This document shows, one piece after another, positions 4,766 through 31,561 of a stretch of DNA of 31,561 nt. Numbering within the stretch: the stretch's first letter is position 1; each line of letters begins with the position of its first letter. Source of the DNA: a virus; the IMG/VR virus record IMGVR_UViG_3300009514_000068, positions 1-31,561 of that record; one strand, given 5' to 3'. The position numbers and the translations under genes are program-made. Below the pieces are notes generated by a model that saw nothing but the letters and a program-made list of their open reading frames with translations, did not search any database and was not told the DNA's origin.

Positions 4766-5848
4766 CTATCGGCCCCAGAACTCGATCAGGAAGATCCCGG
4801 CCGTGTAGGTGGCGTCGCCACCGGTCGCGCCCGCCAGGTAGAGGTAGGAGTTGGCCGCCGGGAGCGCCGTGAAGACGGCCTCCTGGCCGGCGGTCAGGCT
4901 GCCTCCGTTGACGAGGATCGCCTGGCCGGCCAGGCCGGTGACGTCCGCGTCCTCGGTGCCGGTGGCGTCCGTCGAGGAGTAGATGTCGATGTCGGCGTCG
5001 CCCGTCGCGGGAGACTCGAAGCACTTCACCTTGCCGGCGATGATCGTGCCGTGCGTCGCAGCGGTGATCTGCCCGAAGTGGCAGTTGGCCGCGGAGTCCT
5101 CGCCGATGATGTCGTTGGCCGTGCCGCCGGAGTTGAGCCCGGTGAGGTCGATCAGGATCTTGGTGTGGAACAGGGTCCCGATCTTGTGGACCTGGTGCTC
5201 GATCACCCCGGCCCCGTCGAACCCGGTGCCGGGCACCACGTCGCGCGCCGACTGGTCGCAGACCGCGTCGATCTCCGCAGCGGTCGCCGAGACGACCACC
5301 CCGTCGTTGGCCGCGTCCGTGAGCAGCACGTTGGCGGTCGCGGCCCCCGGGTCGGGGAAGCTGAGCACCGAAGCCTGGCCCATGGCCGCGTTGCTCAGCG
5401 TGACGTTCGTGTCGGCGTCGTTGTTGACCGCGGCGATGATCAGCTTCCCGCGGGCGGCGGTCGCCGGGAAGACGTCGACCGTGCCCACGGTGCCGGAGGC
5501 CCCGGCGTCGAGGTTGACGCAGTCGAGGTTGCGGAAGTCGCCCGCGTCCTTGTTGGCGTCCACGATCACGGCGGTCGAGGCGGTGACCACCCCGGCGGTT
5601 GCCCCAATCAGGGCCTCCTGGGCCGCGGACAGCGCTGCCACCGCGTCGAAGTTGCAACTCGTGACCGACCCCTCGTTGACGTACAGCGCCGTGCCGGCGC
5701 CGCCGTCCGTGTGCATGAAGAGACACCCAGTGACGTAGCCGGCCGTCCCATCGGTGGGCACGGTGGCCCCGCTAGCCAGCCGGAGGTCGTCGCCGTCCTC
5801 GGCCTCTGGGATGGAGATGTTCAGAATCTTGCCGACACGCTTGATCAT
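4766..5848 (-). CDS. Putative virion structural (tail/decoration) protein
   Basis: 360 residues, acidic and rich in Ala, Gly, Thr and Asp, with the all-beta composition typical of virion proteins. The stretch GYVTGCLFMHTDGGAGTALY, followed by NEGSVTSCNFDAV, resembles a segment I associate with structural proteins in environmental phage genomes. Later strands (ILIDLTGLNSGG, YSSTDATGTEDAD, YLYLAGATGGDATY) suggest a C-terminal jelly-roll or fibre-like domain. It starts at ATG 5848, three bases after the stop of the 63-residue gene. No enzymatic motif is visible. Confidence 0.75.
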   Translation of the reverse strand: MIKRVGKILNISIPEAEDGDDLRLASGATVPTDGTAGYVTGCLFMHTDGGAGTALYVNEGSVTSCNFDAVAALSAAQEALIGATAGVVTASTAVIVDANKDAGDFRNLDCVNLDAGASGTVGTVDVFPATAARGKLIIAAVNNDADTNVTLSNAAMGQASVLSFPDPGAATANVLLTDAANDGVVVSATAAEIDAVCDQSARDVVPGTGFDGAGVIEHQVHKIGTLFHTKILIDLTGLNSGGTANDIIGEDSAANCHFGQITAATHGTIIAGKVKCFESPATGDADIDIYSSTDATGTEDADVTGLAGQAILVNGGSLTAGQEAVFTALPAANSYLYLAGATGGDATYTAGIFLIEFWGR

Positions 5849-18770: not shown

Positions 18771-19003
18771 TACGCGGTGCGCTCCAGCAGGATCGGGCCT
18801 TGGTCTGGTGTCACGGCGACGACCCGGAAGGCCAGCTTCACTCCGCTGACCCAGTACGGCCAAAGGTGGCCGACCACTCGGGGCAGGAGGTTCAGATCAA
18901 CCCACTGCTGCTCACCCACAGCCATGTCGGAGATCACACGTCGGGTCCGTTCATGCAGCTTGGCGCGCGCCCCTCGACTAGTCGTTTGGGGAGAGTAGCA
19001 CAT
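18770..19003 (-). CDS. Small basic hypothetical protein, first gene of late operon; start uncertain
   Basis: The frame ends at TAA 18770 and is open to ATG 19003 (MCYSPQTTSRGARAKLHERT; 77 residues). A shorter start at 18925 (MAVGEQQWVDLN) gives 51 residues. The C-terminal segment QWVDLNLLPRVVGHLWPYWV, followed by SGVKLAFRVV, looks genuine. The codons just after ATG 19003 contain the candidate extended -10 TGCTACTCT. If that promoter is real, the longer start cannot be used from that transcript. No Shine-Dalgarno precedes either. Function unknown. Confidence 0.5.
   Translation of the reverse strand: MCYSPQTTSRGARAKLHERTRRVISDMAVGEQQWVDLNLLPRVVGHLWPYWVSGVKLAFRVVAVTPDQGPILLERTA
18992..19000 (-). 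promoter_or_regulatory. Candidate extended -10 promoter for terminase block
   Basis: Minus-strand TGC-TACTCT identical to the motif before the portal gene. Predicted start near 18985. No convincing -35 is visible at the right distance, which is acceptable for an extended -10 promoter. It lies at the 3' end of tRNA-like element 1. Confidence 0.4.
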
Positions 19004-19124
19004 GGGTCGGCGCGGAGTCGAACCGCCTGCTTCACGGGAGTCCCAACTGGAGACGAGCAGGGAGTCGCACCCTGACACCCGCGACAGGCCCGCCCCGAGC
19101 GTGCTACAGCCCGGGGACCGACCC
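19003..19124 (-). ncRNA. tRNA-like element 1
   Basis: Minus strand. A perfect 7-bp acceptor-like stem (GGGTCGG 19124-19118 / CCGACCC 19010-19004) is followed by A in the discriminator position. A canonical T-arm has loop TTCGACT and 4 of 5 stem pairs directly before the 3' acceptor strand. A D-like hairpin (CCCCG...CGGGG) and a 5-bp/7-base hairpin (CAGGGTGCGACTCCCTG) lie between. At ~121 nt it is too long, has no U33 in the anticodon-like loop, and has ~19 extra bases between D-like and next arm. CCA is not encoded. It may be a degenerate or noncanonical tRNA. The surrounding 10-bp inverted repeat (CATGGGTCGG) is exact. Confidence 0.35.
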
Positions 19125-19125
19125 A

Positions 19126-19230
19126 TGCCGGGGGCCGGAATCGAACCGGACGCCTCCGATCACCCCTCGTTGAGTGGCCCGTGTCGACCCGGACCCGAAG
19201 GAATCGGTGTGCTCCCTACACCACAGCGGC
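19126..19230 (-). ncRNA. tRNA-like element 2
   Basis: Minus strand. The 5' part TG-GTGT-AGGGAGC-ACAC looks like a tRNA D-arm (T8, 4-bp stem, Gly-rich loop). The 3' part TCCGG-TTCGATT-CCGGC is a T-arm followed by CCCCGGC and discriminator A. The acceptor pairs only GCCG/CGGC plus one further pair with the 5' end at 19230. Between them lie a GTCCG/CGGGC stem with an 8-base loop and a CACTC/GGGTG stem, like a long variable arm. About 105 nt. I could not fit a normal anticodon arm with U33, so it is not called a tRNA. Confidence 0.35.
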
Positions 19231-19283
19231 GTGCTGGGGCGCGGCGAGTCTCGAGTGCCCCGTCTTACACGCCCAGCAAGGGT

Positions 19284-19292
19284 AGGGTAGCA
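19284..19292 (-). promoter_or_regulatory. Candidate extended -10 promoter for tRNA-like elements
   Basis: Minus-strand TGC-TACCCT, one base different from the other two late promoters, immediately followed by an overlapping second TACCCT. Initiation near 19277 would give a transcript carrying both tRNA-like elements and then the late operon. Confidence 0.4.
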
Positions 19293-19349
19293 CCGGGCCC
19301 CGGGCGGGGTCCTCAAAAATCACAAAAATCTGTGTGAGAGGGGCCGATT

Positions 19350-19425
19350 CCCACGCGATTTTTCGCGTGGGGCGCCCGCAATCCCGCCTAGTGGGCGGGT
19401 CTTGGCCCGCGCGAAAAATCGCGTG
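19350..19425. repeat. Nested inverted repeats with A/T5 loops
   Basis: CCCACGCGA-TTTT-TCGCGTGGG (19350-19371) is a perfect 9-bp hairpin. The sequence CACGCGATTTTTCGCG (19352-19367) recurs as an exact 16-bp reverse complement at 19410-19425, whose core also folds on itself. Between them CCCGC...GGGCGGG can pair. This gives alternative hairpins or a ~75-bp cruciform. A bidirectional regulatory or terminator-like site is plausible. Confidence 0.6.
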
Positions 19426-19967
19426 GGGCTCACGTGGGGGCCGCACGCCGCGCGCCCACGAGCCACGCTGCCGCAGCGGCGCGAGCCACGCCGCGCGCCC
19501 ACGCGCCCCGCGCCACGCCCGTGGCGCCGCAAAAACGGGGGTTCGGGGGGCGCGAGGTGACTCGGAGTCCCGCGGCGCGATGGGGTGGGGGGCCTGGTAA
19601 AGACTTACGACGGCCCCCGGGGGGTGGCCCGCCCCGCCGCGGCGCCTGGCCCCCTCGAGCCCCAGCCTCAAGCCCTGGCCCTGCAAGGGCTCAAGCCCCG
19701 GGTACAAGCTGGTCGAGCTGTGCACCAAAGGTCGGGGGAGGGATCCACGTGCACCCTACCTTCGTTCGGTGGCGTGCAAGCCCTGGTGTTGGGGGTCTGC
19801 TGTCCAGCGTGCTGGACAGGGGGGAGTCGGGCTGCTCGGCGGGGCTCGGCGGGGGGAGTCGAGCGGGTCCAGGCCCCTCGGCGTCGCAACCCCTAGGGCA
19901 CCTAGTCGCTCCACCCAGGTGTTCCATAATGGCGCAGGTGGTCCATTTCGTTACACTCCGCTCCCAC

Positions 19968-20000
19968 CCACGATATCTCGTGGGGACGATATATCGTCCC
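19968..20000. promoter_or_regulatory. Two tandem palindromic operators
   Basis: CCACGA-TATC-TCGTGG (19968-19983) abuts a perfect 18-bp palindrome GGGACGATATATCGTCCC (19983-20000), both centred on CGATAT-type half sites. They lie ~10 bases downstream of a candidate TACACT -10. Repressor or initiator binding is inferred; no cognate regulator gene was recognised in the window. Confidence 0.6.
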
Positions 20001-20171
20001 TTGCCCTCTCGCCTCACCCCGAGCCCGTCACAGCCCGCAAGCTCCGTGAGGCGTCACGACACCCCGCGCACCCTGATCGGCTCGCCACGGCCCTCGTTGG
20101 GGCCTTGTCGTGGGCACCACGCCAGGCCCGTGCTCATGGATCGCGCGAGACTCTCTCATCAGGCGATCGCT

Positions 20172-20264
20172 TTCGCATTTTGCGAATCCGTTCGCATTTT
20201 GCGAACCTTGACCCCGCCTCGATTTAGCACCAACGGTCTGGAGTTACGATTCGCAGAATGCGAA
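20172..20264. promoter_or_regulatory. Three TTCGCA-N3-TGCGAA operators
   Basis: Exact 15-bp inverted repeats at 20172-20186 and 20191-20205 (both TTCGCATTTTGCGAA, 19 bases centre to centre) and 20250-20264 (TTCGCAGAATGCGAA). Arms are identical and only the spacer differs, as expected for binding sites of one dimeric regulator. The third touches a candidate TACGAT -10 (20245-20250) ~100 bases before the first early gene, so it is well placed to control the early operon. Confidence 0.7.
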
Positions 20265-20361
20265 CGTCGAGCACGTTCAATGCAGGGTTTAGCTTTGGTG
20301 CGACGGTTGCTGAGATTCTCGACGTTCCGACCCGAGCCGACCAAACCCACGGAGACGACCC

Positions 20362-20571
20362 ATGGACACCCCCGATTGCCCTGGTTGCGGAAACCCTACC
20401 AATGGGCCGAACCTCTGCGGCCCTTGCGACGACGAACGCACTACCTCGCCCTGCACGCAATGCCCCGACGGGTTTGGTGACTACCACGCGGATGCCACAG
20501 GCGCCGTCGTCCCTACCACCGAGCGGGGAGAGTGGATCTGCGAGGTCTGCTTGGAGGCGCTGCGAGGGTAG
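20362..20571 (+). CDS. Small zinc-ribbon protein (first early gene)
   Basis: 69 residues with four Cys pairs: CPGC (6-9), CGPC (~19-22), CTQC and CEVC near the C-terminus, so it can hold two zinc sites. Starts at ATG 20362 after GGAGACGACCC. It is the first gene of the rightward arm, downstream of the three TTCGCA operators, which suggests early expression. Small Cys-rich proteins of this type in phages are often host-takeover factors, but no target can be named here. Confidence 0.7.
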   Translation: MDTPDCPGCGNPTNGPNLCGPCDDERTTSPCTQCPDGFGDYHADATGAVVPTTERGEWICEVCLEALRG

Positions 20572-20629
20572 CCGCTCGGCGCGATGCCCCGGATCGGATC
20601 CGGCCCGGACCCCGGGGTGACAGGGGATC
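20572..20629 (+). ncRNA. Intercistronic structured element, family A copy 1
   Basis: Begins right after the stop codon: CCGCTCGGCGCGATGCC, then hairpin CCGGA-TCGGA-TCCGG (20589-20603), then a 26-base tail ending GGGGATC that contains ACCCCGGGG. Copies 2 and 3 have the same frame, tail and length but a different stem (AGGGA/TCCCT). All stem positions that change do so in complementary fashion. Confidence 0.65.
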
Positions 20630-20659
20630 GCCCGAACTGACCTAACCCCTGGAGACACC

Positions 20660-20893
20660 ATGGCCCGACTCCGACTCACCCCCGACGGACTCCGACTCAC
20701 CCCCGACGACCTCCGCCACTGTCGCGAAACGTGGGAGGGTCTGCAGGACCCTTGCGGCGCACCCGATTGCGCCGACGGCGGGTGCGACTGCCAGGCGTCC
20801 GAAATCATCATGACCAGCCTCGGTTACGTCGACGTCTGCCACGACGGGGACGTGGTCGCCTACGGGCGCATGATCGCCTACGTCGGCGACTAG
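20660..20893 (+). CDS. Small Cys-rich hypothetical protein with N-terminal duplication
   Basis: 77 residues. A 21-base unit is exactly duplicated in tandem (20667-20687 and 20688-20708), giving RLTPDGL-RLTPDDL. A Cys-rich middle (HCRETWEGLQDPCGAPDCAD, GGCDC) may bind metal, and the C-terminus (VDVCHDGDVVAYGRMIAYVG) is beta. RBS is GGAGACACC before ATG. Function unknown; the neat duplication suggests a recent slippage event. Confidence 0.65.
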   Translation: MARLRLTPDGLRLTPDDLRHCRETWEGLQDPCGAPDCADGGCDCQASEIIMTSLGYVDVCHDGDVVAYGRMIAYVGD

Positions 20894-20944
20894 GCGCGAA
20901 GCCAGGGATCAAATCCCTCCCGCACCCCGGGGTGACAGGGGATC
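20894..20944 (+). ncRNA. Intercistronic structured element, family A copy 2
   Basis: Directly follows TAG 20893: GCGCGAAGCC, hairpin AGGGA-TCAAA-TCCCT (20904-20918), then the 26-base tail ending GGGGATC (one base different from copy 1). The hairpin plus flank also mimics a tRNA T-arm in layout (GGG-ATCAAAT-CCC). Confidence 0.65.
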
Positions 20945-20967
20945 ACCAACAGAGGAGGAATCGACCA

Positions 20968-21189
20968 ATGACCTATGAATGGCGTGTTGAACTCGCCGAC
21001 TCCACCCGTACGGGATACCGCCTGTGGTGCACCGTGGCTTACCAGTCAATGGCTGAGAACATCGCTCGGCGCGAATGCCGTAGTGGTGTCACCGCTCCTC
21101 TCTGGCGCGTCGTGGGCCCGGACCGGCGCGTCACGTGGGCAGGGAGCCACGGCGCCCTGGTCGAAGCCTACGGACAACCCGAGAAGTAG
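20968..21189 (+). CDS. Small hypothetical protein
   Basis: 73 residues starting at ATG 20968 after GAGGAGGAATCGACCA, the leader motif shared by many genes of this arm; upstream in-frame sequence lies in the family A spacer and is not coding. Product: MTYEWRVELADSTRTGYRLW, CTVAYQSMAENIARREC, then PLWRVVGPDRRVTW. Short alternating strands and a helix suggest a small alpha/beta fold. No motif recognised. Confidence 0.65.
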   Translation: MTYEWRVELADSTRTGYRLWCTVAYQSMAENIARRECRSGVTAPLWRVVGPDRRVTWAGSHGALVEAYGQPEK

Positions 21190-21247
21190 CCGCCCGGCGC
21201 GACGCCAGGGATCAAATCCCTCCCGGACCCCGGGGTGACAGGGGATC
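21190..21247 (+). ncRNA. Intercistronic structured element, family A copy 3
   Basis: Follows TAG 21189: CCGCCCGGCGCGACGCC, hairpin AGGGA-TCAAA-TCCCT (21207-21221), tail of 26 bases ending GGGGATC (21241-21247). 5' part matches copy 1, hairpin matches copy 2. Same spacing to the Shine-Dalgarno as copy 2. Confidence 0.65.
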
Positions 21248-21270
21248 ACCAACAGAGGAGGAATCGACTC

Positions 21271-21834
21271 ATGGATGCCGACGACCACGCCCACGAAGAA
21301 CTGCCGCGCTACCGCGATTGGGCACCGACAAGCTTCGACACCCCCGGACTCCGCGCCGAGACAATGGGCGGATACGCGGGCTCGCCGGCCCGCGGCTATG
21401 AGGACGCGGACGACGATATCGATCGCTCAGATTGGCTCGTGCTCCCTGTGAGCCAGACCCGGGACTCGGGCGCCCTCGCGCGGAGCAACTACGCCGCGGC
21501 GACGGCGTCTCTCGACGCGGTGGACCCCGGCGCGATCGACCACGAAGATCATCGCTTCGGCCACTGGGGTCCGGGCTGGGTCGAGATCCTGATCGTGCGG
21601 CCGCATACCCCGTGCGCCACGGTCGCGGGTGAGATCCTCTGCGCTCTCGCCGACTCCCCCGTGCTCGATGAGGAAGCCTACTCCGATCTGGAGTGGGAGG
21701 AAGCGGCGGAGTCGTGGCGCTGGGCAAGCGTGCGCGATCGCGTGGAGTCGTGCCAGCGCCACGGGGTGTCGGTGTTTGCGGCTCGGCGGGACGCCATCCC
21801 CGAAGGTTGCTGGGAGGACTGGCGCGGGGAGTAG
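21271..21834 (+). CDS. Conserved hypothetical protein of phages/plasmids
   Basis: Start ATG 21271 after GAGGAGGAATCGACTC; the longer frame from 21235 lies in the RNA element. 187 residues. The middle carries LVLPVSQTRDSGALARSNYA and DHRFGHWGPGWVEILIVRP, a pattern I recognise from a widespread uncharacterised protein of phages and mobile elements (SQTRDSxxLxxSN ... HRFGHWGPGW). The C-terminus (VLDEEAYSDLEWEEAAESWR, HGVSVFAARR) is helical. No catalytic residues assigned. Confidence 0.75.
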   Translation: MDADDHAHEELPRYRDWAPTSFDTPGLRAETMGGYAGSPARGYEDADDDIDRSDWLVLPVSQTRDSGALARSNYAAATASLDAVDPGAIDHEDHRFGHWGPGWVEILIVRPHTPCATVAGEILCALADSPVLDEEAYSDLEWEEAAESWRWASVRDRVESCQRHGVSVFAARRDAIPEGCWEDWRGE

Positions 21835-21848
21835 CGCGCGCCGCCACC

Positions 21849-21893
21849 ACCCCCGCACGGCGCCGCCCGGTTCGAGTCCGGGCCCGGGGGATC
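21849..21893 (+). ncRNA. T-arm-like intercistronic element, family A' copy 1
   Basis: A 45-base sequence identical to that at 22479-22523. It contains a T-arm look-alike (CCCGG-TTCGAGT-CCGGG, 21866-21882). Outer CCCCCG (21850-21855) can pair with CGGGGG (21885-21890), giving an acceptor-plus-T-arm 'minihelix' shape with CACGGCGCCG in place of D and anticodon arms. Ends GGGGGATC, like family A. Confidence 0.6.
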
Positions 21894-21916
21894 ACTACTA
21901 CCAGGAGAATCGACCA

Positions 21917-22468
21917 ATGACCATCCGACTCAACCGCCAAACTCTGAGCGTACTCGCGTGCGCTCACCCCGACGCGACCCGCTACGCGATGAACGGTGTC
22001 CACATCGACGGCGCCGGCCTAACGGCCACGGACGGCAAGTGCCTGGCGCACGTCACGCACGGCGAACCCGTGGAGCTGGCGCCCGATACGACCTATGCCA
22101 GCGCCAGCATCAAGGCGCTCGCCAAGACGCTCGGCCGCAACGGTGAGGCGACGCTCCAAGACGGCGTCGCGACCCACGGCACGAGCACGCACGCGCTGGC
22201 ACAACTCGCGGGGATCTTCCCCCCGTACTCCGAGGTCATGCCCCTCGGCGAGCGCACCGAGGTGGGGATTGACCTCGCCGTGCTCGAACGCGTGGTCAGG
22301 GCCGCGCGGGCCTTCTTTGGCCCGCGGCGGAAGGGCGACGGTCCCAACGTCATGCGGCTTGCCTTCGACGCGGATAAGCCCGCCGACTGCGCCATCACGC
22401 TCAAAGCCAGCGACGCGGCCACCGGCCGGACCTTCACGGGACTCGTGATGCCGTTGCTGCTCGACTAG
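21917..22468 (+). CDS. Half-length sliding-clamp-like protein (DnaN/beta-clamp family)
   Basis: 183 residues; ATG 21917 follows AGGAGAATCGACCA. Clamp landmarks visible: ATDGKCLAHVT near residue 37 (the ATDGHRLA motif), FPPYSEVMP near residue 101 (compare FPDYxxVIP of bacterial clamps), VGIDLAVLERVVRAAR, and C-terminal GLVMPLLLD (like VVMPMRL). Bacterial beta clamps are ~366 residues with three domains; this is about half, so it may form a ring from more subunits or act as a minimal clamp. Would tether a polymerase or other replication protein to DNA. A DNA polymerase is not in the window. Confidence 0.7.
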   Translation: MTIRLNRQTLSVLACAHPDATRYAMNGVHIDGAGLTATDGKCLAHVTHGEPVELAPDTTYASASIKALAKTLGRNGEATLQDGVATHGTSTHALAQLAGIFPPYSEVMPLGERTEVGIDLAVLERVVRAARAFFGPRRKGDGPNVMRLAFDADKPADCAITLKASDAATGRTFTGLVMPLLLD

Positions 22469-22478
22469 CCCCACCCCC

Positions 22479-22523
22479 ACCCCCGCACGGCGCCGCCCGG
22501 TTCGAGTCCGGGCCCGGGGGATC
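22479..22523 (+). ncRNA. T-arm-like intercistronic element, family A' copy 2
   Basis: Exact 45-base copy of 21849-21893, 630 bases downstream and again between a stop codon and the next Shine-Dalgarno. Perfect identity while flanks differ argues for recent copying or strong selection. Confidence 0.6.
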
Positions 22524-22564
22524 CCGGCTCGCATGCCGCGGGCCGCTAACCGAAAGGGCCGACC

Positions 22565-22963
22565 ATGATTACCACCCGACCCCGCCCGCTCGACGGGCTT
22601 ATCTGCCCCATCTGCCGAGACCCCGTCGACCCCTACGCAGACGACGCCGCCGCCTGGACCGCGGACCCTACCGCCGTGGTCCACCGGGAGTGCGACCCGA
22701 CCTATCGCTGGGTCGTCCAGACCGCGAGCGCAAGTATGCCCCGCACATGCTGGGGCCGCTACGGCCGCGTCGCGGTCCTCGAGCTGGAGCCCGACTGGGA
22801 CGGGCCCGTGGCGATGATCTCCGCGCGGGCCCGCGGCGTGCGGCGGGTCATCTGCACATGGGAACGCCTCAACATCGGGTCGACGGATCGCTGCGCGTTC
22901 GCGCGGGCGCTGGCGGCGGCTGACGAGATGGTGGCGGAGCACAACGCGCGGCTGGCGTCATGA
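22565..22963 (+). CDS. Zinc-binding hypothetical protein
   Basis: 132 residues. N-terminal CPICRDPVDP and a later HRECDP give a C-x2-C...H/C zinc-finger-like unit in the first 45 residues. The C-terminal part (RVAVLELEPDWDGPVAMISA) is beta, then a helix (CAFARALAAADEMVAEHNAR). Start at ATG 22565 after GAAAGGGCCGACC. Unknown role in the early arm. Confidence 0.65.
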   Translation: MITTRPRPLDGLICPICRDPVDPYADDAAAWTADPTAVVHRECDPTYRWVVQTASASMPRTCWGRYGRVAVLELEPDWDGPVAMISARARGVRRVICTWERLNIGSTDRCAFARALAAADEMVAEHNARLAS

Positions 22964-23295
22964 TCTGCGCCGACACGGATGAGCCCGTCCAGCCGGCCGG
23001 GACCTTGGGCGGGGTCGCCCAGTGCGCCTCGTGCTACCTCGAGGGGCGCAAAGAGGCGTGCCCAACGTGGCAGCACTACCTCCAGGCCACCGGGCCCAAG
23101 CCCCGGGCCCCGGGCCGGGTCCACCGGCGGACGGCCACGGGCGACGTCCGATGCTCCTGGTGCGAGGCGCCCGCCGGCGAATCGCTCTGGGCGCCTGGCT
23201 GGCCGGAGCGGTGGATCGGCGACGCCTGCCGACGGCACGCGGAGCTGTACGGGCGCCGGCCCGGGTTGGACGTGCGGCACGCGAGGATTGACTGA
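22960..23295 (+). CDS. Zinc-ribbon hypothetical protein
   Basis: 111 residues. The ATG overlaps the previous TGA (ATGA). Two Cys pairs (CASC, later CSWC) plus isolated Cys residues suggest two small zinc sites. The C-terminal part (WAPGWPERWIGDACRRHAEL, YGRRPGLDVRHAR) is basic and Trp-rich. It may act with the preceding zinc protein, given coupling. No family recognised. Confidence 0.62.
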   Translation: MICADTDEPVQPAGTLGGVAQCASCYLEGRKEACPTWQHYLQATGPKPRAPGRVHRRTATGDVRCSWCEAPAGESLWAPGWPERWIGDACRRHAELYGRRPGLDVRHARID

Positions 23296-23303
23296 CCACC
23301 ACG

Positions 23304-23319
23304 CCCGCCTATGTGCGGG
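23304..23319 (+). promoter_or_regulatory. Shine-Dalgarno-proximal hairpin (partial family B leader)
   Basis: CCCGC-CTATGT-GCGGG stem, followed at once by AAAGGAG and ATG 23332. It corresponds to the 3' hairpin of the family B leaders but lacks their P1/P2 domain. Confidence 0.5.
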
Positions 23320-23331
23320 AAAGGAGACGAG

Positions 23332-23631
23332 ATGACCGAACGTTTTGACGAGGCCACCCCAGAGGACGTGAACCCGGACTGGGAGCCCTTCCCGCATCGC
23401 ATCATGATCGCGGGCCCATTGGGACTCACGCCCCTCGCCGGATTCGGTGACTACACCGACGCGTGGGCCTACCTCGCTAGCCAGTTGAAGCCTGGGAATT
23501 ACAAGGTCGGCACCGTGTTTGAAATCTGGGCCAGGGGCGTAGCCGCTTGGCGCTACGAGGTGATTGGCGAGGCGGGCTTGTGGTCGCGCGAGGACCTGAC
23601 ACGCCGCACCAACTACGAGGGGACCCCGTGA
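23332..23631 (+). CDS. Hypothetical protein with MTE-RFDEA N-terminus
   Basis: Start ATG 23332 after AAAGGAGACGAG; an in-frame ATG at 23311 lies in the leader hairpin loop and has no Shine-Dalgarno. 99 residues: MTERFDEATPEDVNPDWEPF, a beta middle (GNYKVGTVFEIWARGVAAWR) and a charged tail. The N-terminus is shared with the 51-residue gene at 24031 (MTEQERFDEA). The two also share 5' hairpins, suggesting segmental duplication. Function unknown. Confidence 0.6.
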   Translation: MTERFDEATPEDVNPDWEPFPHRIMIAGPLGLTPLAGFGDYTDAWAYLASQLKPGNYKVGTVFEIWARGVAAWRYEVIGEAGLWSREDLTRRTNYEGTP

Positions 23632-23948
23632 CCCGCGGCACGGTCTGCGCGGCGTGCAAGATCATCTACGCCACGCCGGAGTTCGAAGACCTACTGGAAA
23701 TGCTCCGGCCGCACTTGAAGACGGACGCGGTCCGCGAAGCGCTCGCCGAGTTCACGGTAACGGTCGTCAACAAGCCCCCTGCGGTCTGCTTGGACTGTGG
23801 AGCGGAAACCGCAAGGCAGATAACGCGCGACCTATGCCTCCGCTGCGGTAAGGCCGCGGAGGTCCACGTGGTCGGAGCGACAGACGTCCACGGAGTCTCA
23901 TTCGAAGAGTTCTGGTGTTCGGAATGCTACGACGGGAGAGCAACGTGA
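23628..23948 (+). CDS. Multi-zinc-ribbon hypothetical protein
   Basis: Start GTG 23628 overlapping the previous TGA (GTGA); the longer frame from 23547 is shadow. 106 residues with four Cys pairs: CAAC near residue 6, CLDC, CLRC and CSEC, compatible with two zinc sites flanking a helix (FEDLLEMLRPHLKTDAVREA). Another of the many small CxxC proteins of this arm. Unknown target. Confidence 0.65.
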   Translation: MTRGTVCAACKIIYATPEFEDLLEMLRPHLKTDAVREALAEFTVTVVNKPPAVCLDCGAETARQITRDLCLRCGKAAEVHVVGATDVHGVSFEEFWCSECYDGRAT

Positions 23949-23950
23949 AA

Positions 23951-24021
23951 GTCCCGGCGGGGAGTCGAAACGCCCGCGAGGGCGTCCGGGACGCAAACGC
24001 CCGCCAAGTGCGGGAGAGGAG
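23951..24021 (+). ncRNA. Leader RNA family B copy 1 (candidate cis-regulatory RNA)
   Basis: P1 GTCCCGG/CCGGGAC (23951-23957 with 23986-23992); a 12-base one-sided bulge CGGGGAGTCGAA (23958-23969); P2 ACGCCC/GGGCGT capped by GCGA (GNRA). Then hairpin CCCGC-CAAGT-GCGGG (24000-24014), 2 bases before the AGGAG of ATG 24031. The bulge's GGCGGG can instead pair with the CCCGCC of the 3' hairpin, freeing or exposing the ribosome site differently. Confidence 0.6.
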
Positions 24022-24030
24022 AATCGACCA

Positions 24031-24186
24031 ATGACCGAACAGGAACGCTTTGACGAAGCCGTACTGGCCCTGGCTGAGGAAGACGGAGCCCGCATTGTCG
24101 TCATGATCCCCGGAGTCTGGGAAGTGGTGTCCGAGTACTACAACAACGCGGCTCTCGACCGGATGCGCGAAGGAAACGACCAATGA
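24031..24186 (+). CDS. Small hypothetical protein (51 aa) under leader B1
   Basis: ATG 24031 with AGGAG 9 bases upstream; ends TGA 24186, overlapping the next possible start. 51 residues: MTEQERFDEAVLALAEEDGA, RIVVMIPGVWEVVSEYYNNA, ALDRMREGNDQ. One helix, a short hydrophobic strand and a second helix. N-terminus matches the 23332 protein. Too short for recognition; the structured leader directly before it is the strongest argument that it is a regulated gene. Confidence 0.55.
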   Translation: MTEQERFDEAVLALAEEDGARIVVMIPGVWEVVSEYYNNAALDRMREGNDQ

Positions 24187-24206
24187 TCCACTTGAGGAGA
24201 CGACCA

Positions 24207-24413
24207 ATGATCAGAGACCAAAACGGGCGGGCCGTATTCAAGCACGTGCGCCAGGAGGAAGCGGGCTGGGGCTGCAACGTATGGTTTGGCGGCTGCAACG
24301 GGCTGGCAACCTCGCTGCGCCGCCACTACTACCGCACTCGAGCGGAAGCGCGCAACGCGGACATCAGCGACGGCGCGGGAGTCCTGCGACACGGCCCCTA
24401 CCTCGCCCGCTGA
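24207..24413 (+). CDS. Small basic hypothetical protein
   Basis: 68 residues from ATG 24207, preceded by GAGGAGACGACCA, the arm's usual leader. An alternative ATG at 24183 (ATGA overlap, AAGGAAACGACCA upstream) adds eight residues, whose codons include the Shine-Dalgarno of the shorter form. Product MIRDQNGRAVFKHVRQEEAG, WGCNVWFGGCNGLATSLRRH, YYRTRAEARNAD. Basic, with a central CNVWFGGCNG that could be a small beta hairpin. No family recognised. Confidence 0.55.
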   Translation: MIRDQNGRAVFKHVRQEEAGWGCNVWFGGCNGLATSLRRHYYRTRAEARNADISDGAGVLRHGPYLAR

Positions 24414-24421
24414 AGATGGCC

Positions 24422-24487
24422 CCCGGCGGGGAGCCGAAACGCCTTCGGGCGTCCGGGACGCAACACCCGCTGAATGCGGGAGAGGAG
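24422..24487 (+). ncRNA. Leader RNA family B copy 2 (candidate cis-regulatory RNA)
   Basis: P1 CCCGG/CCGGG (24422-24426 with 24453-24457); bulge CGGGGAGCCGAA (24427-24438, one base different from copy 1); P2 ACGCC/GGCGT capped by TTCG instead of GCGA; 3' hairpin CCCGC-TGAAT-GCGGG (24466-24480); SD AGGAG 24483-24487. Stable-tetraloop swapping with the stem kept is a hallmark of RNA-level selection. Lies before ATG 24497. Confidence 0.6.
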
Positions 24488-24496
24488 AATCGACCA

Positions 24497-24883
24497 ATGG
24501 ATACCCACCTTGCCACGGCGCGCCGAGCTTACCTCGCCTTACCCACCCCCGACCCTACCGCCGCCCGCTACGTGCGGGCACTCGAGCGGGCGCTTGGCCT
24601 GGCCACCGAACCGCCGCGCGTCGTGACCACCGCCGCCGCGCGGTTCAACGGCCGCGCCCAGCGCCAGGCCAGCGTCGAAACCCTCAGCGACGGGACGGTG
24701 CGCCTGCTGAGCTACGGCACTCCCGTTAGCTACTTCCAGGCGGGAGTGCTCTACCAAGTGCCGCCGGGTACCTACTCCAACACGACCACGAGCCACCAGA
24801 GCAAGTGGGCGCGCGAGCTGGGCTACCCCAAGGCGGTGACCGTGCCCACCGATGACCCGCTGCTAACCCTGGTGGGCGCGTGA
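24497..24883 (+). CDS. Hypothetical protein under leader B2
   Basis: 128 residues; ATG 24497 after AGGAGAATCGACCA; upstream in-frame sequence is the leader RNA. N-terminus helical (TARRAYLALPTPDPTAARYV); the C-terminal domain ETLSDGTVRLLSYGTPVSYF, then YQVPPGTYSNTTTSHQSKWA, resembles a domain seen in uncharacterised phage and plasmid proteins (xLLSYGTPV ... YS-TTSxHQ). Function unknown. The stop overlaps the recombinase GTG. Confidence 0.65.
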   Translation: MDTHLATARRAYLALPTPDPTAARYVRALERALGLATEPPRVVTTAAARFNGRAQRQASVETLSDGTVRLLSYGTPVSYFQAGVLYQVPPGTYSNTTTSHQSKWARELGYPKAVTVPTDDPLLTLVGA

Positions 24884-25599
24884 CGTGGGCCGTTGGCTAC
24901 TGCCGGGTGTCGACCACCGGGCAGGCGGACGACGGCCATTCGCTCGGCGAGCAGGAGGCCCGGATCCGGGCCTACTGCGGGCGGCGGGGGTGGGATGTGG
25001 CGGTCCTGCGGGACGCGGGGATCAGTGCGGCCGTGCCGCTGGCCCAGCGGCCGGCCGGAGCCCAGCTCCCCGGGCCGGCGACCCATGTGGTCGCGGTGCG
25101 GCTCGACCGGCTGTTTCGCAGCACGCGCGACGCGGTCATGACGCTCGACGCCTGGCGGGGGCGAGTCGACCTCCACCTCCTCGAGTTCGGCGGCGGGGAG
25201 TTGGACACGAGCACGCCCATGGGGCGCATGTACTTCACGCTCGCGGCGGCCTTCGCCGAGCTGGAGCGGGGCCTGATCAGCGAGCGGACCAAGGCGGGCC
25301 ACCGCGGCGCGCTTCGGGAGGGGAGGATCCCGGGCGGCCGGCGGCCGTACGGGTTCCGCGCCGGGCCAGGACGGGCCGCGGTGCCGGTGCCTGAGGAGGT
25401 CGCCACGGTGCGGCTGATGCTCCGGTGGCGGGACGCCGGGCTCCCGTGGGGCGAGATCGCGACCGAGCTGAACGAGCGCGGGACCCCCACCGCCGGCGGC
25501 CGGCGCGGCCCCGGGGCCTGGCGCGGGCATGTGGTGCGGCGGATCGTGGAGCGGTATGCGGATCCGCTGTGGGCGGCGCTGCTGGACGCGGCCCCGTGA
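24880..25599 (+). CDS. Small serine recombinase (resolvase/integrase family)
   Basis: GTG 24880 overlaps the previous TGA. 239 residues. Resolvase domain (1-~140): YCRVSTTGQADDG with nucleophile Ser11; VAVRLDRLFRSTRD with the catalytic Arg cluster; MGRMYFTLAAAFAELERGLI then SERTKAG. A shortened Recombinase domain follows (RRPYGFR ... VPEEVATVRLMLRWRDAGLP, IATELNERGTPT). The zinc-ribbon and coiled-coil regions of large serine integrases (450-600 aa) are absent. It may promote integration, resolution or cassette exchange. A repeat-rich AT island follows two genes later. Confidence 0.85.
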   Translation: MTWAVGYCRVSTTGQADDGHSLGEQEARIRAYCGRRGWDVAVLRDAGISAAVPLAQRPAGAQLPGPATHVVAVRLDRLFRSTRDAVMTLDAWRGRVDLHLLEFGGGELDTSTPMGRMYFTLAAAFAELERGLISERTKAGHRGALREGRIPGGRRPYGFRAGPGRAAVPVPEEVATVRLMLRWRDAGLPWGEIATELNERGTPTAGGRRGPGAWRGHVVRRIVERYADPLWAALLDAAP

Positions 25600-25859
25600 C
25601 GCAGTGCGCCAAGTGCGGGGCCGAGACGGGGCGGCCGCGGTTCTGCTCGACGCGGTGCAGCGCGGCCTGGCACCAGGCCGCGTGGCGCCGGCGGAACCCG
25701 GGGAGCGACCAGCGGTACTACTGGCGGGACCCTGAGCGGGCCCGGGCCCGGGACCGGGCGAAGTACCGGCGGCGCCGGGCGCACCCAGCGGGCGTGAATC
25801 GGTGCGGCCGGTGCGGGGGCGTCGGCCACAATCGGCGGAGTTGTGAGTCCGAGCCGTAA
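25596..25859 (+). CDS. Zinc-finger protein with CCHC knuckle, coupled to recombinase
   Basis: GTG 25596 overlaps the recombinase TGA (GTGA). 87 residues: N-terminal CAKCGAETGRPRFCSTRCSA (C-x2-C...C-x3-C, treble-clef style), a very basic middle (ERARARDRAKYRRRR), and C-terminal CGRCGGVGHNRRSC, an exact C-x2-C-x4-H-x4-C zinc knuckle (C70, C73, H78, C83). Nucleic-acid binding is very likely. It could supply the zinc domain missing from the neighbouring recombinase, or be independent. Confidence 0.7.
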   Translation: MTQCAKCGAETGRPRFCSTRCSAAWHQAAWRRRNPGSDQRYYWRDPERARARDRAKYRRRRAHPAGVNRCGRCGGVGHNRRSCESEP

Positions 25860-25951
25860 GTCCTTACCCCGCCCGTAAAGGCCAAAACGGGGCCCGATGG
25901 TGAGGCTGCAGCGAGGTATATGTATAACTAGACCAATTGGACCCGCTACCT

Positions 25952-26007
25952 TACCTGACACTTTAACCACAAGCGGAGCCGGGGGTTAAAATAGCACTTG
26001 TCAGGTA
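25952..26007. repeat. Nested inverted repeat
   Basis: TACCTGACA (25952-25960) pairs with TGTCAGGTA (25999-26007), and inside it TTTAACC (25962-25968) pairs with GGTTAAA (25984-25990). This gives a two-storey hairpin or cruciform. Confidence 0.65.
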
Positions 26008-26236
26008 CTATGGACGTAAGTCCTTATGTGGCCCGTAACCATCGTACCTGTACCCATCCTTTTTTATTTAACCCCGAGCATCCATATACTTTTTCCACTT
26101 CCACCACCCCAATTTCTGTATATATACATAGTACCACGCTAAGAGTACTGTCCGGTACGACCGTTACGGACACCGTAAGGACTTAAGGAGGTAGTACCTG
26201 ACAGCCGTAAGGACTTAAGTGGGTAGTACCTGACAG
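26000..26236. repeat. Composite repeat, one forward and two inverted copies
   Basis: A ~27-base unit (GTCAGGTACTA, 6 variable bases, TAAGTCCTTA) occurs at 26000-26026. Two near-copies in inverse orientation lie in tandem at 26174-26204 and 26206-26236 (32-base period). Each reads TAAGGACTTAAG...GTAGTACCTGACAG. Confidence 0.7.
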
Positions 26237-26249
26237 CCGCCTAAACCGC

Positions 26250-26360
26250 GATGGCCGACCGCGACCCGCCGATGGCCGACCGCGGCCCGCCGATGGCCGA
26301 TGGGGCCCGCGACCCGCCGATGGGGCCCGCGACCCGCCGATGGCCGATGGTGGACCCGCC
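26250..26360 (+). repeat. GC-rich imperfect tandem repeat
   Basis: Five to six imperfect ~20-27-base units of the form GATGGCCGACCGCGACCCGC. It could encode a short MADRDPP-like peptide repeat, but the frame runs into the PP-loop gene in another frame and lacks a Shine-Dalgarno, so I treat it as noncoding. Confidence 0.6.
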
Positions 26361-26371
26361 CCGGGCGGTGG

Positions 26372-26380
26372 TGGTAGACT
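26372..26380 (+). promoter_or_regulatory. Candidate extended -10 with leaderless spacing
   Basis: TGG-TAGACT, six bases before ATG 26387, so the expected initiation base falls on the start codon. No Shine-Dalgarno is present. Fits leaderless transcription. Confidence 0.5.
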
Positions 26381-26386
26381 CCCCGC

Positions 26387-26542
26387 ATGGCCCCCATCGA
26401 CATCGCCACCCTCCCCGTACTGATGAGATGCCCCGGCCGCTGGATCCTCGAGCGACCCGCCCCCCAGGCGCCGCCCAAGGCGGCGGTGCCCAAAGCCCTG
26501 CGGGGGATCAAGCTCCCAGTACTACGAACGAAATCCAAGTAG
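26387..26542 (+). CDS. Small basic protein (51 aa), probably leaderless
   Basis: ATG 26387 to TAG 26542: MAPIDIATLPVLMRCPGRWI, LERPAPQAPPKAAVPKALRG, IKLPVLRTKSK. Basic, Pro/Ala-rich centre, no motif. It lacks a Shine-Dalgarno but has TAGACT at the spacing of leaderless genes. An 8-bp inverted repeat (26518-26546) straddles its stop. Function unknown; moderate support only. Confidence 0.45.
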   Translation: MAPIDIATLPVLMRCPGRWILERPAPQAPPKAAVPKALRGIKLPVLRTKSK

Positions 26543-26546
26543 TACT
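26518..26546. repeat. Inverted repeat between small gene and PP-loop gene
   Basis: AGTACTAC (26518-26525) and GTAGTACT (26539-26546), separated by 13 bases. It overlaps the stop codon of the 51-residue gene and lies ~23 bases before the candidate promoter of the next gene. Possible operator; GTAGTAC also occurs in the nearby island repeats. Confidence 0.5.
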
Positions 26547-26568
26547 GGCGAAGCCCCTGGGCCCTCGG

Positions 26569-26574
26569 TATCCT
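26569..26574 (+). promoter_or_regulatory. Candidate -10 (leaderless) for PP-loop gene
   Basis: TATCCT, seven bases before GTG 26582. Initiation is expected at about 26581-26582, the start codon itself; no Shine-Dalgarno is visible. Confidence 0.5.
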
Positions 26575-26578
26575 TGCC

Positions 26579-26602
26579 CACGTGAACCGACCAACCCAAC
26601 CA
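26579..26602 (+). repeat. 24-bp direct repeat, left copy
   Basis: Exact match to 27442-27465. It begins CACGTGAACCGACC and ends ACCCAACCA. It spans the first codons of the PP-loop gene. Confidence 0.85.
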
Positions 26603-27448
26603 AAGCGCGGCGAACTCGCCACCGTCCTGAACTTCAGCGGGGGGAGTCAATCGACCGCTCTTCTCTGGATGGTGATCCGGGGGGAGATAGAGTGCCCGCC
26701 CAACTTCCTGGTCCTCCACGCGGACCCGGGCATGGAGGCGAGCGCCAGCTACGACATGGTCGAGTACATGAAGCGGGCCGCCAAGACTGTGGGCATTGAC
26801 GTTGTGACCGTCCCCGGGCCCAACCTTTACGACGACGTGCTAACGTTACGCGACCGCGGCACGGTTCGCCTGGACAACGCCGCCTGGTTTACCCAACGCC
26901 CGTCAGGCTCTCGGGGCCGACTCCGGCAGAAATGCACCCGCTACTACAAGGTCCGCCCCATGGACCGCTGGCTGCGTCAGTGGATTGAGGACACGCACGG
27001 GATCAGTCGCAGAGCTTCCCGCCTCGGCGAAGGCGTCGTCATCAAGTGGATCGGGTTCGGGGCCGACGAGCAGCGCCGCGTGAAGCCGAGTCCGCGGAAG
27101 TACATCAAGTTCGACTTCCCCCTGATCCGCCTCGGGATGACCCGCGAGGACGTGAGCGCCTACTATCGCCGGATCCAGAAGCCTGAGCCCCCGCGCTCTG
27201 TGTGTAATGGGTGCTTCGCGCACTCCCTCGCCGACCTCCGCGCCATGCACGACGCCCGCCCCAACGACTACGAACAGGCGTGCAAGGTGGACGACGCGGT
27301 GCGTAACTTGGAGCAAGTTGGGGTCGAGGACCCTGTTTTCGTATCCGACACCTTAATCCCACTTCGCCGTCTGCCCACGGTCGGGTGGGACGTCAAGCGC
27401 GAGCGGGCATATACCCCCCGCTGTGACTCGGGGTACTGTTTCACGTGA
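26582..27448 (+). CDS. ATP-pyrophosphatase (PAPS reductase-like) phage protein
   Basis: 288 residues from GTG 26582. The PP-loop is LNFSGGSQSTALLW (SGGxxST, residues 19-25). Further marks of the phage/DndC-like branch: HADPGMEASASYDMVEYM, QKCTRYYKVRPMDRWLR, SVCNGCFAHSLADL, and a C-terminal CDSGYCF. The family adenylates or sulfurates substrates. Some members act in DNA phosphorothioation or other base modification, but no partner modification gene is present, so the substrate is unknown. It is framed by 24-bp direct repeats. Confidence 0.8.
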   Translation: MNRPTQPKRGELATVLNFSGGSQSTALLWMVIRGEIECPPNFLVLHADPGMEASASYDMVEYMKRAAKTVGIDVVTVPGPNLYDDVLTLRDRGTVRLDNAAWFTQRPSGSRGRLRQKCTRYYKVRPMDRWLRQWIEDTHGISRRASRLGEGVVIKWIGFGADEQRRVKPSPRKYIKFDFPLIRLGMTREDVSAYYRRIQKPEPPRSVCNGCFAHSLADLRAMHDARPNDYEQACKVDDAVRNLEQVGVEDPVFVSDTLIPLRRLPTVGWDVKRERAYTPRCDSGYCFT

Positions 27449-27465
27449 ACCGACCAACCCAACCA
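27442..27465 (+). repeat. 24-bp direct repeat, right copy
   Basis: Exact copy of 26579-26602, overlapping the stop codon (TGA 27446-27448) of the PP-loop gene. The unit between repeats is 863 bases from start to start, i.e. one gene. Confidence 0.85.
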
Positions 27466-27497
27466 GACACGCAACGGCGGGGTACTTTGGTCGGTTC
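27447..27497. repeat. 11-bp inverted repeat downstream of PP-loop gene
   Basis: GAACCGACCAA (27447-27457) and TTGGTCGGTTC (27487-27497), 29 bases apart. The left arm is part of the right direct repeat. The rest of the 27449-27602 gap holds a GC hairpin (GCGGGG...CCCCCGC) before AAAGGAG. No gene seen. Confidence 0.6.
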
Positions 27498-27602
27498 CTC
27501 CGCCGCTCGTCGCGCTGCCCCCCGCCAGGGGCCCACACCCCTGGCGGGGGCGCGGCCGACCTAACGCAACGCGGGGTGGGACCCCCGCAAAGGAGCCGAC
27601 CG

Positions 27603-28238
27603 ATGAAGATCACCTTGAAACAAGTCCTCTCGTTGAAACCGTGCTACAGCGAGGATCGGATACGCAAGATCGCCGCTGGACGCAGCAGCATGACGTTGCG
27701 CGAAATCTTGGCCATGGACAGGATCCCCGCCAGGGACCGCCTCTGGGTCGCTCTACGTGTGTTGCCCGCACGGACAGTGCGACTCTTCGCCGCTGACTGC
27801 GCCGTCCGCGCGCTGATCCGCGAAAGGGACGCTGGACGTGAGCCGGACCCTCGGTCATGGGAGGCTGTGAGGGTGGCCCGCGACTACGCGCTGGGTGAGG
27901 CCACTCGCGCTGAGCTAGACGCCGCCCGCGCGGCCGCCGCCCGCGCGGCCTACGCCGCCACCGCCACCGCCACCGCCACCGCCACCGCCACCGCCACCGC
28001 CACCGCCACCGCCACCGCCGCCACCGACGACGCGGCCTACGCCTACGCCCACGCCGCCGCCGCCGACTCCGCCGCCGCCGCGGCCGACGCCTACGCAGCC
28101 GCCGACGCCGCCGCAGCCTACGCCGCCAACGCCGCCACCGTCTACGCCGACTACACCGCCGCCGCCACCTCCGCCGCCGAGGAGGAGCAAACGCAGATCA
28201 AGCGCCTGGTCGCCCTGCTGGATTGGATCGACCCATGA
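27603..28238 (+). CDS. Ala-rich repeat protein with conserved N-terminal helical domain
   Basis: Start ATG 27603 after AAAGGAGCCGACCG (the longer frame from 27423 is noncoding). 211 residues. The N-terminal part LWVALRVLPARTVRLFAADC, then DPRSWEAVRVARDYALGEAT and RAELDAARAA, resembles a domain I associate with proteins of high-GC bacteria that continue in (A/AA)-rich repeats. Residues ~115-200 are (Thr-Ala)n and Ala/Tyr/Asp repeats from a (GCCACC)n tract. Role unknown. Confidence 0.7.
   Translation: MKITLKQVLSLKPCYSEDRIRKIAAGRSSMTLREILAMDRIPARDRLWVALRVLPARTVRLFAADCAVRALIRERDAGREPDPRSWEAVRVARDYALGEATRAELDAARAAAARAAYAATATATATATATATATATATAATDDAAYAYAHAAAADSAAAAADAYAAADAAAAYAANAATVYADYTAAATSAAEEEQTQIKRLVALLDWIDP
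27955..28024 (+). repeat. (GCCACC)n hexanucleotide microsatellite
   Basis: About ten to eleven units coding for alternating Ala-Thr. A six-base unit keeps the frame when copy number changes, so length variation would be tolerated. Confidence 0.8.
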
Positions 28239-28861
28239 AGCGCCTCGTCGTCTACGTAGCGGGCCCCCTGGGCGACCCGCCCGCCCTGGCCCACGTGGCC
28301 ATGGCCCAGCGCGCCGCGACCGCCGTGCGGGGCTTCGGCCATGTGGCCATCGTGCCCCACCTGTCGGCCTACGAAGACGCCGTCGAGCCCCGCCCCCGCC
28401 GCGCGTGGCTCGACGATGACCTCGAGATCGTCTCCCGCTGTGACGTCGTCCTCCGCCTGCCCGGCGACTCCCCCGGGGCCGATGAGGAGGTGGCCCACGC
28501 CGAGGCCCTAGGCATCCCGTGGGTCCGACACCCCGAGGACATCCGCGCCGCGTACGACGCGCGCCACGCGCACCGCGCCGCCGCGCGGGCCGCCATGTCC
28601 CCCGCCGCCGAGGCCGGCAACGCGGCGGGGCCCGCCCCGCGCGTCACCCCCCGCTGCACCCCCACATGGGTCCCTGGCAAGGCCGAGGCCGCCTACAAGG
28701 GGGTCGTGGAGCTGGCGGGCCGCGTGGACGCCCTCACGGCCGGCCTGGCGGACGTCATGCGCCAGCTCGCGGCGGCCGAAGCCCACTTGCAACGGCTGGA
28801 GGCCCGAGTGGACCTGGTGGAGGAGCACCCGGACTGCGGGCGGGGGCTGGCCGACGCATGA
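28235..28861 (+). CDS. DUF4406/nucleoside deoxyribosyltransferase-like protein with C-terminal coiled coil
   Basis: ATG 28235 overlaps the previous TGA. 208 residues. VYVAGPLGD at residue ~6 (substrate loop), PHLSAYEDAV, and RCDVVLRLPGDSPGADEEVA, followed by HAEALGIPW, are DUF4406/Nuc_deoxyrib_tr signatures. Family members bind nucleotides; phage versions are often annotated as deoxyribosyltransferase-like. The C-terminal ~60 residues (KGVVELAGRVDALTAGLADV, EAHLQRLEARVDLVEEHP) form a coiled coil, an unusual addition. Confidence 0.75.
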   Translation: MKRLVVYVAGPLGDPPALAHVAMAQRAATAVRGFGHVAIVPHLSAYEDAVEPRPRRAWLDDDLEIVSRCDVVLRLPGDSPGADEEVAHAEALGIPWVRHPEDIRAAYDARHAHRAAARAAMSPAAEAGNAAGPAPRVTPRCTPTWVPGKAEAAYKGVVELAGRVDALTAGLADVMRQLAAAEAHLQRLEARVDLVEEHPDCGRGLADA

Positions 28862-29073
28862 GGCCCCACGACTGCATCGAGTGCGGCGCCCCCGTCCAAC
28901 ACTCCCCGCCCGGCTGGGGCCGATACGAGTACTGCCCGCTCTGCATCGCGGAGCACCACCGCCGCGCCGCGCAGCTCCGCGCCGAGCGCAAGCGCATCGT
29001 GGCCATGCGGCCCCACCACCCTATCTCCCCCGAGCCCTACGCCCGCCCCGTCCACCGCTACGTGGGGCCATGA
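28858..29073 (+). CDS. Small zinc-ribbon protein
   Basis: ATG 28858 overlaps the previous TGA (ATGA). 71 residues: HDCIECGAPVQHSPPGWGRY, EYCPLCIAEHHRRAAQLRAE, then a basic tail. C-x2-C...C-x2-C suggests one zinc site. Sits just before the helicase gene, with which it overlaps by four bases, so it could be a helicase accessory. Target unknown. Confidence 0.65.
   Translation: MRPHDCIECGAPVQHSPPGWGRYEYCPLCIAEHHRRAAQLRAERKRIVAMRPHHPISPEPYARPVHRYVGP

Positions 29074-31399: not shown

Positions 31400-31561
<162 letters not shown>

Follow-up and report, generated by a model that had tools for sequence, protein, structure and literature searches.

Two exact copies of a 46-nt repeat, located at 21848-21893 and 22478-22523 on the plus strand of a 31.6-kb viral record (the window, being the whole stretch of DNA that was analysed), occupy spacers of an early operon, and each copy is tentatively read here as a compact tRNA-like minihelix that provides tRNA-like punctuation in the early polycistronic mRNA. 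As an observed feature the repeat is confirmed to be real, and no third copy is present in the record. The window element probably belongs to a small set of natural minihelices that recur before phage genes. Cutting of the phage message at the element by host tRNA enzymes is plausible, and the functionality of the window's own copies is the least certain step, because these copies have no sisters and possess a weak outer stem.

Anatomy of the repeat and its place in the early operon

A sequence-only reading of this DNA had reported identical 45-mers starting at 21849 and 22479, each with CCCGG-TTCGAGT-CCGGG and an outer CCCCCG/CGGGGG stem. Both the identity of the copies and the two stems are indeed found, whereas the exact repeat measures 46 nt and starts one base earlier in each copy; the wider stretch around the copies is 56 nt long and 95% alike. 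In copy 1, a 5' acceptor-like strand CCCCCG (21850-21855; 22480-22485 in copy 2) is followed by a 9-nt linker, CACGGCGCC (21856-21864), which replaces the D and anticodon arms and carries GG at position 4. The T-arm comes next (21865-21883; 22495-22513 in copy 2), having a 6-bp stem GCCCGG/CCGGGC and the loop TTCGAGT, and after one bulged C the element closes with the 3' acceptor-like strand CGGGGG (21885-21890; 22515-22520 in copy 2). The resulting stack comprises 12 pairs, six of the T-stem and six of the outer stem, plus the bulged C. The T-loop matches every consensus letter of TTCRANY, so that the arm has the 5-bp stem, the TTCRANY loop and the G53-C61 pair by which T-arms were defined. 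Behind the 3' strand, both copies continue with ATC and lack CCA.

The placement in spacers given by the sequence-only reading is likewise correct, each copy having a stop codon on its 5' side and a start codon on its 3' side. Copy 1 lies between a gene ending at 21834 and a DnaN-like clamp gene (21917-22468, plus strand; phrog_947, E 1.5e-11), and copy 2 lies between the end of the clamp gene at 22468 and a gene starting at 22565. The small early genes on the plus strand begin at 20362 and include a serine recombinase gene (24880-25599), and a divergent terminase (phrog_2) is encoded on the minus strand. Neither the clamp nor the protein encoded at 24497-24883 has relatives in viral_contigs, and the clamp has none in the phages database.

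The T-arm is rare in this sequence context and unlikely to be there by chance: 5-bp T-arms with a TTCRANY loop occur twice in the window, these two being one repeated sequence, compared to a mean of 0.05 and a largest count of 2 in 60 dinucleotide shuffles. Given the T-arm, an outer stem was obtained in 4.2% of cases with shuffled upstream DNA and in 2.0% with random upstream stretches of the window, and an outer stem combined with the linker GG in 1.3% and 0.5%, respectively. The outer stem alone is therefore weak evidence and not unusual at such high G+C. The isolated 46-mer does not fold more stably than its shuffles (z -0.38). When folded within its surroundings, the T-arm of copy 1 reached a mean pairing probability of 0.58-0.83 with flanks of 40-150 nt and 0.06 with flanks of 20 nt, and that of copy 2 reached 0.82-0.89 but 0.05 with flanks of 40 nt. 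With flanks of 20-150 nt, the pairing probability of the outer stem ranged from 0.04 to 0.67 in copy 1 and from 0.03 to 0.33 in copy 2 (0.44 and 0.33 at 80 nt; 0.10 and 0.32 at 150 nt). The prediction in context is thus a T-arm in most foldings and an outer stem that often fails to form.

Structured elements are present in spacers s1-s5, s7, s8 and part of s6 of the early operon. Family A occupies the spacers before the genes starting at 20660, 20968 and 21271 (s1, 20572-20659; s2, 20894-20967; s3, 21190-21270; all plus strand). A local alignment of s4, a spacer of family B to which the minihelices belong, with s1 spans 38 columns and was equalled in 3 of 300 shuffles, so that s1 is probably distantly paralogous to the spacers that hold the minihelices, and families A and B probably stand in the same relation to each other. 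T54 and A58, in tRNA numbering, are letters with a role in the T-loop. In family A the hairpin loops read ATCAAAT (s2 and s3) and ATCGGAT, in which T54 is not kept and A58 is lost in one, so that the T-loop belongs to family B and not to every operon spacer. The statement that the repeat ends like family A holds in part, since family A ends in AGGGGATC and family B in GGGGGATC, the latter alone not being rare in the window (5 observed compared to 3.1 expected). The 16-mer tail of family A matched two contigs, apparently inside coding DNA. Family C is found in the spacers before 24031 and 24497, with stems kept and hairpin loops that differ. Several of these spacer elements are followed by a Shine-Dalgarno and start-associated repeat, GGAGAATCGACCAATG (21904-21919, plus strand; also at 24018 and 24484, and at 20955 with 2 mismatches).

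Compact minihelices in other phage contigs

The viral_contigs collection was searched for a T-arm followed by a Shine-Dalgarno sequence and then ATG, which yielded at least 120 loci. Among the 127 pattern matches listed, 91 fall inside ARAGORN tRNA or tmRNA genes and 36 outside; a stem of at least 6 Watson-Crick pairs over a linker of at most 30 nt accompanies 10 of the 36 (shuffled rate 7.1%) and 2 of the 91 (rate 4.5%). These loci contain 66 distinct orphan 5-bp T-arms (outside ARAGORN genes) and 314 in tRNA genes. A linker of 7-12 nt, a range set after the first examples were known, combined with a stem of at least 6 Watson-Crick pairs was found in 8 of the 66 orphans and in none of the 314 tRNA T-arms. 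Shuffled controls gave a mean of 0.39 and at most 3 (n=200), swapped 3' sides a mean of 0.41 and at most 3, and two scrambled-loop controls on the same loci gave 0. In a second sample of forty further stretches plus small loci, representing more T-arms from the same contigs, none of 39 new orphan T-arms was compact (expected 0.16-0.25), most of them being longer odd tRNAs when judged by eye. The compact form is thus not general among orphan T-arms, and amounts to 8 of 105 when both samples are pooled.

The eight compact elements (L088, L107, L123, L161, L180, L186 and two in L196, L numbers denoting loci) resemble the window element in several respects. Each of them, like the window element, has a GG that begins at linker position 2, 3 or 4; single-case shuffle rates for this are 0.12-0.36 and their product over the seven non-sister cases is 4e-6. 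The helix has 12 layers in L123, L107, L161, L180, L205 and the window and 13 in both L196 copies, and L088 and L186 have 11 pairs plus an A/A mismatch, reaching 12 layers only if the mismatch is counted. L205, found in a search for T-arms only, is the second element of the contig of L123; it has 7 + 5 pairs and GG at position 4, and its trailing leader is nearly identical to that of L123. The contig of L123 and L196 each carry two elements before two genes, like the window. All eight elements lie shortly upstream of start codons, a position that was pre-selected for five of them and not for L161, L180 and the L196 element at 1127. The window element has the same stem of at least 6 bp, linker of 7-12 nt, GG at position 2-4, T-arm and downstream start codon, and adds the bulged C.

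L161 and L180 come from sister phages, being identical over 150 of 150 downstream bases and over 96 of 111 aligned upstream bases. Three pairs of their T-stem have changed on both sides with pairing kept, and slid controls show no such changes; in this comparison of two sequences only, 66 of 500 shuffles reach the observed covariation value, and the outer stem is invariant. The recurrence of compact minihelices, the linker GG and these double changes partly support the minihelix interpretation of the sequence-only reading.

BLAST of the minihelix regions of L196, L161, L088 and L123 against the phages database gave no match, and the L186 region gave matches whose coordinates and feature names place them in the tRNA array (best 30 of 237 records). 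The L186 element is located where that tRNA array ends, and those of L138 and L107, judged by eye, come after tRNA-like sequences, positions that suggest descent from tRNAs. With some hesitation, we propose a phage class of natural tRNA 'top halves' of about 40 nt and 12-13 layers that would serve as mRNA punctuation before protein genes and might be derived from tRNA genes that have lost the D and anticodon arms. Orphan T-arms whose outer stems match over linkers of 18-28 nt were also seen in L089, L111, L138, L156 and L176, and these are possible intermediates between tRNA and minihelix.

Proposed processing and competing explanations

The element is not a cloverleaf tRNA gene, as ARAGORN finds 0 genes and the linker is only 9 nt. 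Rfam gave 0 matches at gathering in the window and no tRNA match at E 5 within 19000-29000, and no family (tmRNA, YrlA or others) lay on the minihelices of the window or of six scanned loci. An intrinsic terminator, i.e. a G+C hairpin with a T run, was rejected since no site occurs at either copy.

RNase P accepts minimal substrates that consist of an acceptor and a T-arm, and it cuts intergenic regions of bacterial operon mRNAs as well as the C4 precursor of P1/P7. The likeness of the latter cases to the present one would be host RNase P acting on a polycistronic mRNA or phage RNA, which is putative here. Minimal pre-tRNA substrates and external guide sequences share the 12-layer stack, the T-loop and the short linker with the element; in the available text of PMC11143913 they are laboratory constructs or guides, whereas the element is natural, resides in phage mRNA and lacks CCA. 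According to the accessible part of PMC4919913, RNase P measures the T-stem/acceptor stack from the elbow to the cleavage site, and for this enzyme the D-loop seems dispensable, whereas the substrate must have a T-loop-like loop. Such a ruler would be suited by 12 stacked layers that carry a T-loop and a docking GG. The linker GG might dock on the T-loop as G18-G19 of the D-loop do, in which case a stack of about 12 bp would end on one side in a tRNA-like elbow. Host RNase P on the 5' side, and possibly RNase Z on the 3' side, could then take the element for the top half of a pre-tRNA and cut at position 21850 in copy 1 and 22480 in copy 2, perhaps with a second cut after 21890 or 22520, respectively. 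Each downstream gene would be released with a short leader, and the clamp gene and its neighbours would be separated into units that each have ends and a decay rate of their own. RCCA 3' of the acceptor aids cleavage by bacterial RNase P; both copies have ATC at this place, and in the absence of CCA any cutting would rather be weak or of the RNase Z type. To our knowledge, natural minihelices are known mainly as laboratory substrates, and no description of natural phage minihelices was found in the open-access literature searched. If cut by host tRNA enzymes, they would allow phages to split polycistronic mRNA without a nuclease of their own; natural minihelices would become a testable class and would account for some of the T-arms left out by tRNA finders.

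A generic intercistronic hairpin leader, spread by duplication and affecting mRNA stability or translation, with an incidental or relic T-arm look, is possible if rather doubtful. It fits the structured elements that occupy almost all long spacers of the early operon (families A, B and C), the resemblance of B to A and a comparable duplicated spacer hairpin in a terL relative (L009), and the family A spacers without a T-loop in equivalent positions count against a minihelix. It leaves unaccounted for a T-loop on a 5-bp stem that is rare by chance and an acceptor/GG form that is found again elsewhere; a general protection of Shine-Dalgarno sequences by spacer folds is not supported, as s5 is the one spacer out of 7 that is clearly better than its shuffles.

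An unlikely origin is a decayed tRNA or integration scar, in which the 3' part of a tRNA was left by recombination, was duplicated later and has no present role. In its favour, the closest similarity of the element is to a tRNA-like element that the phage itself carries upstream of terL and that s4 matches without gaps over 31 bases, a match equalled by 0 of 300 shuffles; the elements of L186, L138 and L107 also follow tRNAs or tRNA-like sequences. In the available texts, partial tRNAs are common at integration sites (PMC9897764) and the likely attP of halovirus HF2 is a tRNA-like gene (PMC8707807); these have the T-arm and 3' acceptor strand in common with the element and are integration-linked and without a nearby 5' acceptor strand, whereas the element has one. 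A 3' fragment would come without the GG and without a matching 5' acceptor strand located 9 nt upstream, and both copies are placed alike relative to the start codons without adjoining the recombinase gene. Nor is there a match to host tRNAs: no exact 23-mer of the element occurs in genome_contigs and, at 2 mismatches, a match was found in 1 of 387 genomes of Verrucomicrobiota, the host phylum inferred from terL relatives, so the sequence-only suggestion of a scavenged host tRNA fragment is not borne out.

It is quite improbable that a G+C-rich duplicated spacer merely happens to fit a T-arm with an outer stem. The G+C content near 69%, the outer-stem rates of 2.0-4.2% (0.5-1.3% with GG), the unremarkable fold stability and the exactness of the repeat, which makes it one event and not two, leave room for chance, but the 0.05 T-arms per window multiplied by the stem odds come to about 1 in 500 or less, and to 1 in 1500 or less with GG, and the compact class exists in other contigs.

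Least probable is a DNA-level element (an operator, promoter or start-associated repeat): the position before start codons, the repeated Shine-Dalgarno sequence, and the parts available of PMC3203893 (ESAS thought likelier DNA sites) and PMC8707807 (promoter activity of HF2 intergenic repeats) speak for it, and the 0 sigma-70-like sites in 20200-24900 speak against it, as do the compensatory changes in L161/L180 and the conserved T-loop letters, which point to RNA.

Two further known systems resemble the minihelix reading in part. The SAS/ESAS of cluster K mycobacteriophages, a short conserved sequence at start codons with inverted repeats upstream of it, likewise recur directly in front of genes in non-structural regions; the start-associated repeat of the window differs from them, and the T-arm hairpin upstream of it is present in family B and absent from A. 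In the accessible text of PMC3203893, the inverted repeats of ESAS give no support to pairing in RNA and no T-loop is described, whereas the element has a T-loop. Non-canonical and armless mitochondrial tRNAs have the loss of arms in common with the element. As far as the available text of PMC7609411 goes, these tRNAs keep the anticodon part and decode, whereas the element is without an anticodon arm.

Relatives, host and further elements of the phage

Relatives of terL were found at 20 loci in viral_contigs, or at 45 when an alignment served as the query. Two genome contigs also hold such relatives, one belonging to a Verrucomicrobia MAG and the other to Cerasicoccus frondis, a member of the phylum Verrucomicrobiota, and from these we infer a host in that phylum. 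Sister copies of the 45-mer were absent from viral_contigs (28-mer query), and the phages database gave only weak matches (E of at least 1; best 20 of 146 records). In relatives by terL and helicase (L003-L076, 0.80 Mb), picked without regard to T-arms, 0 minihelices and 1 control match were found. The sequence-only reading had named missing conservation in sister phages as a point against itself, and this tells against it in part, there being no copy in these 0.80 Mb of terL and helicase relatives; the window element consequently has no sister for a covariation test.

Upstream of terL, at 18995-19240 on the minus strand of the window, two tandem tRNA-like elements were missed by ARAGORN and Rfam. 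The first ends in CCCCGGC-A after its T-arm, and the second has matching 7-bp acceptor strands, GGGTCGG/CCGACCC, but about 97 nt ahead of its T-arm. tRNA or odd tRNA-like genes also lie just upstream of terL in relatives (L011, 9237-9311; L018, 9938-10018; L019, 8184-8267; L041, 180-253), that of L018 having a 13-nt anticodon loop and that of L019 an irregular anticodon arm. In Cerasicoccus frondis (L042), a degenerate tRNA-like sequence at 3582-3652 stands beside a serine recombinase homologue (3799-4473); it is likely a prophage edge and possibly an attachment site, and its 3' end is single-copy in that genome.

The duplicated hairpin spacer of L009 (6422-6474 and 6921-6973) is 74% alike and located between early genes. 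Ribozyme families were matched above gathering in L014 (Hammerhead II, 593-661, minus strand) and L019 (Twister-P5, 5732-5800, minus strand), and L123 has a weak Hammerhead II match (4935-5001, plus strand). In the window, the family C leaders (23953-24033 and 24420-24499, plus strand) conserve CGGGGAGYCGAAACGCC and look like structured RNA. The AT-rich stretch at 25860-26250, after the recombinase, has long inverted and direct repeats (25999-26048/26154-26203, 26173-26236) and is a possible attP or replication origin. Finally, a (GCCACC)n run lies within an alanine-rich ORF at 27954-28020, and a (GCGCCC)n run at 31476-31553 is close to the contig end, where the assembly may be unsure.
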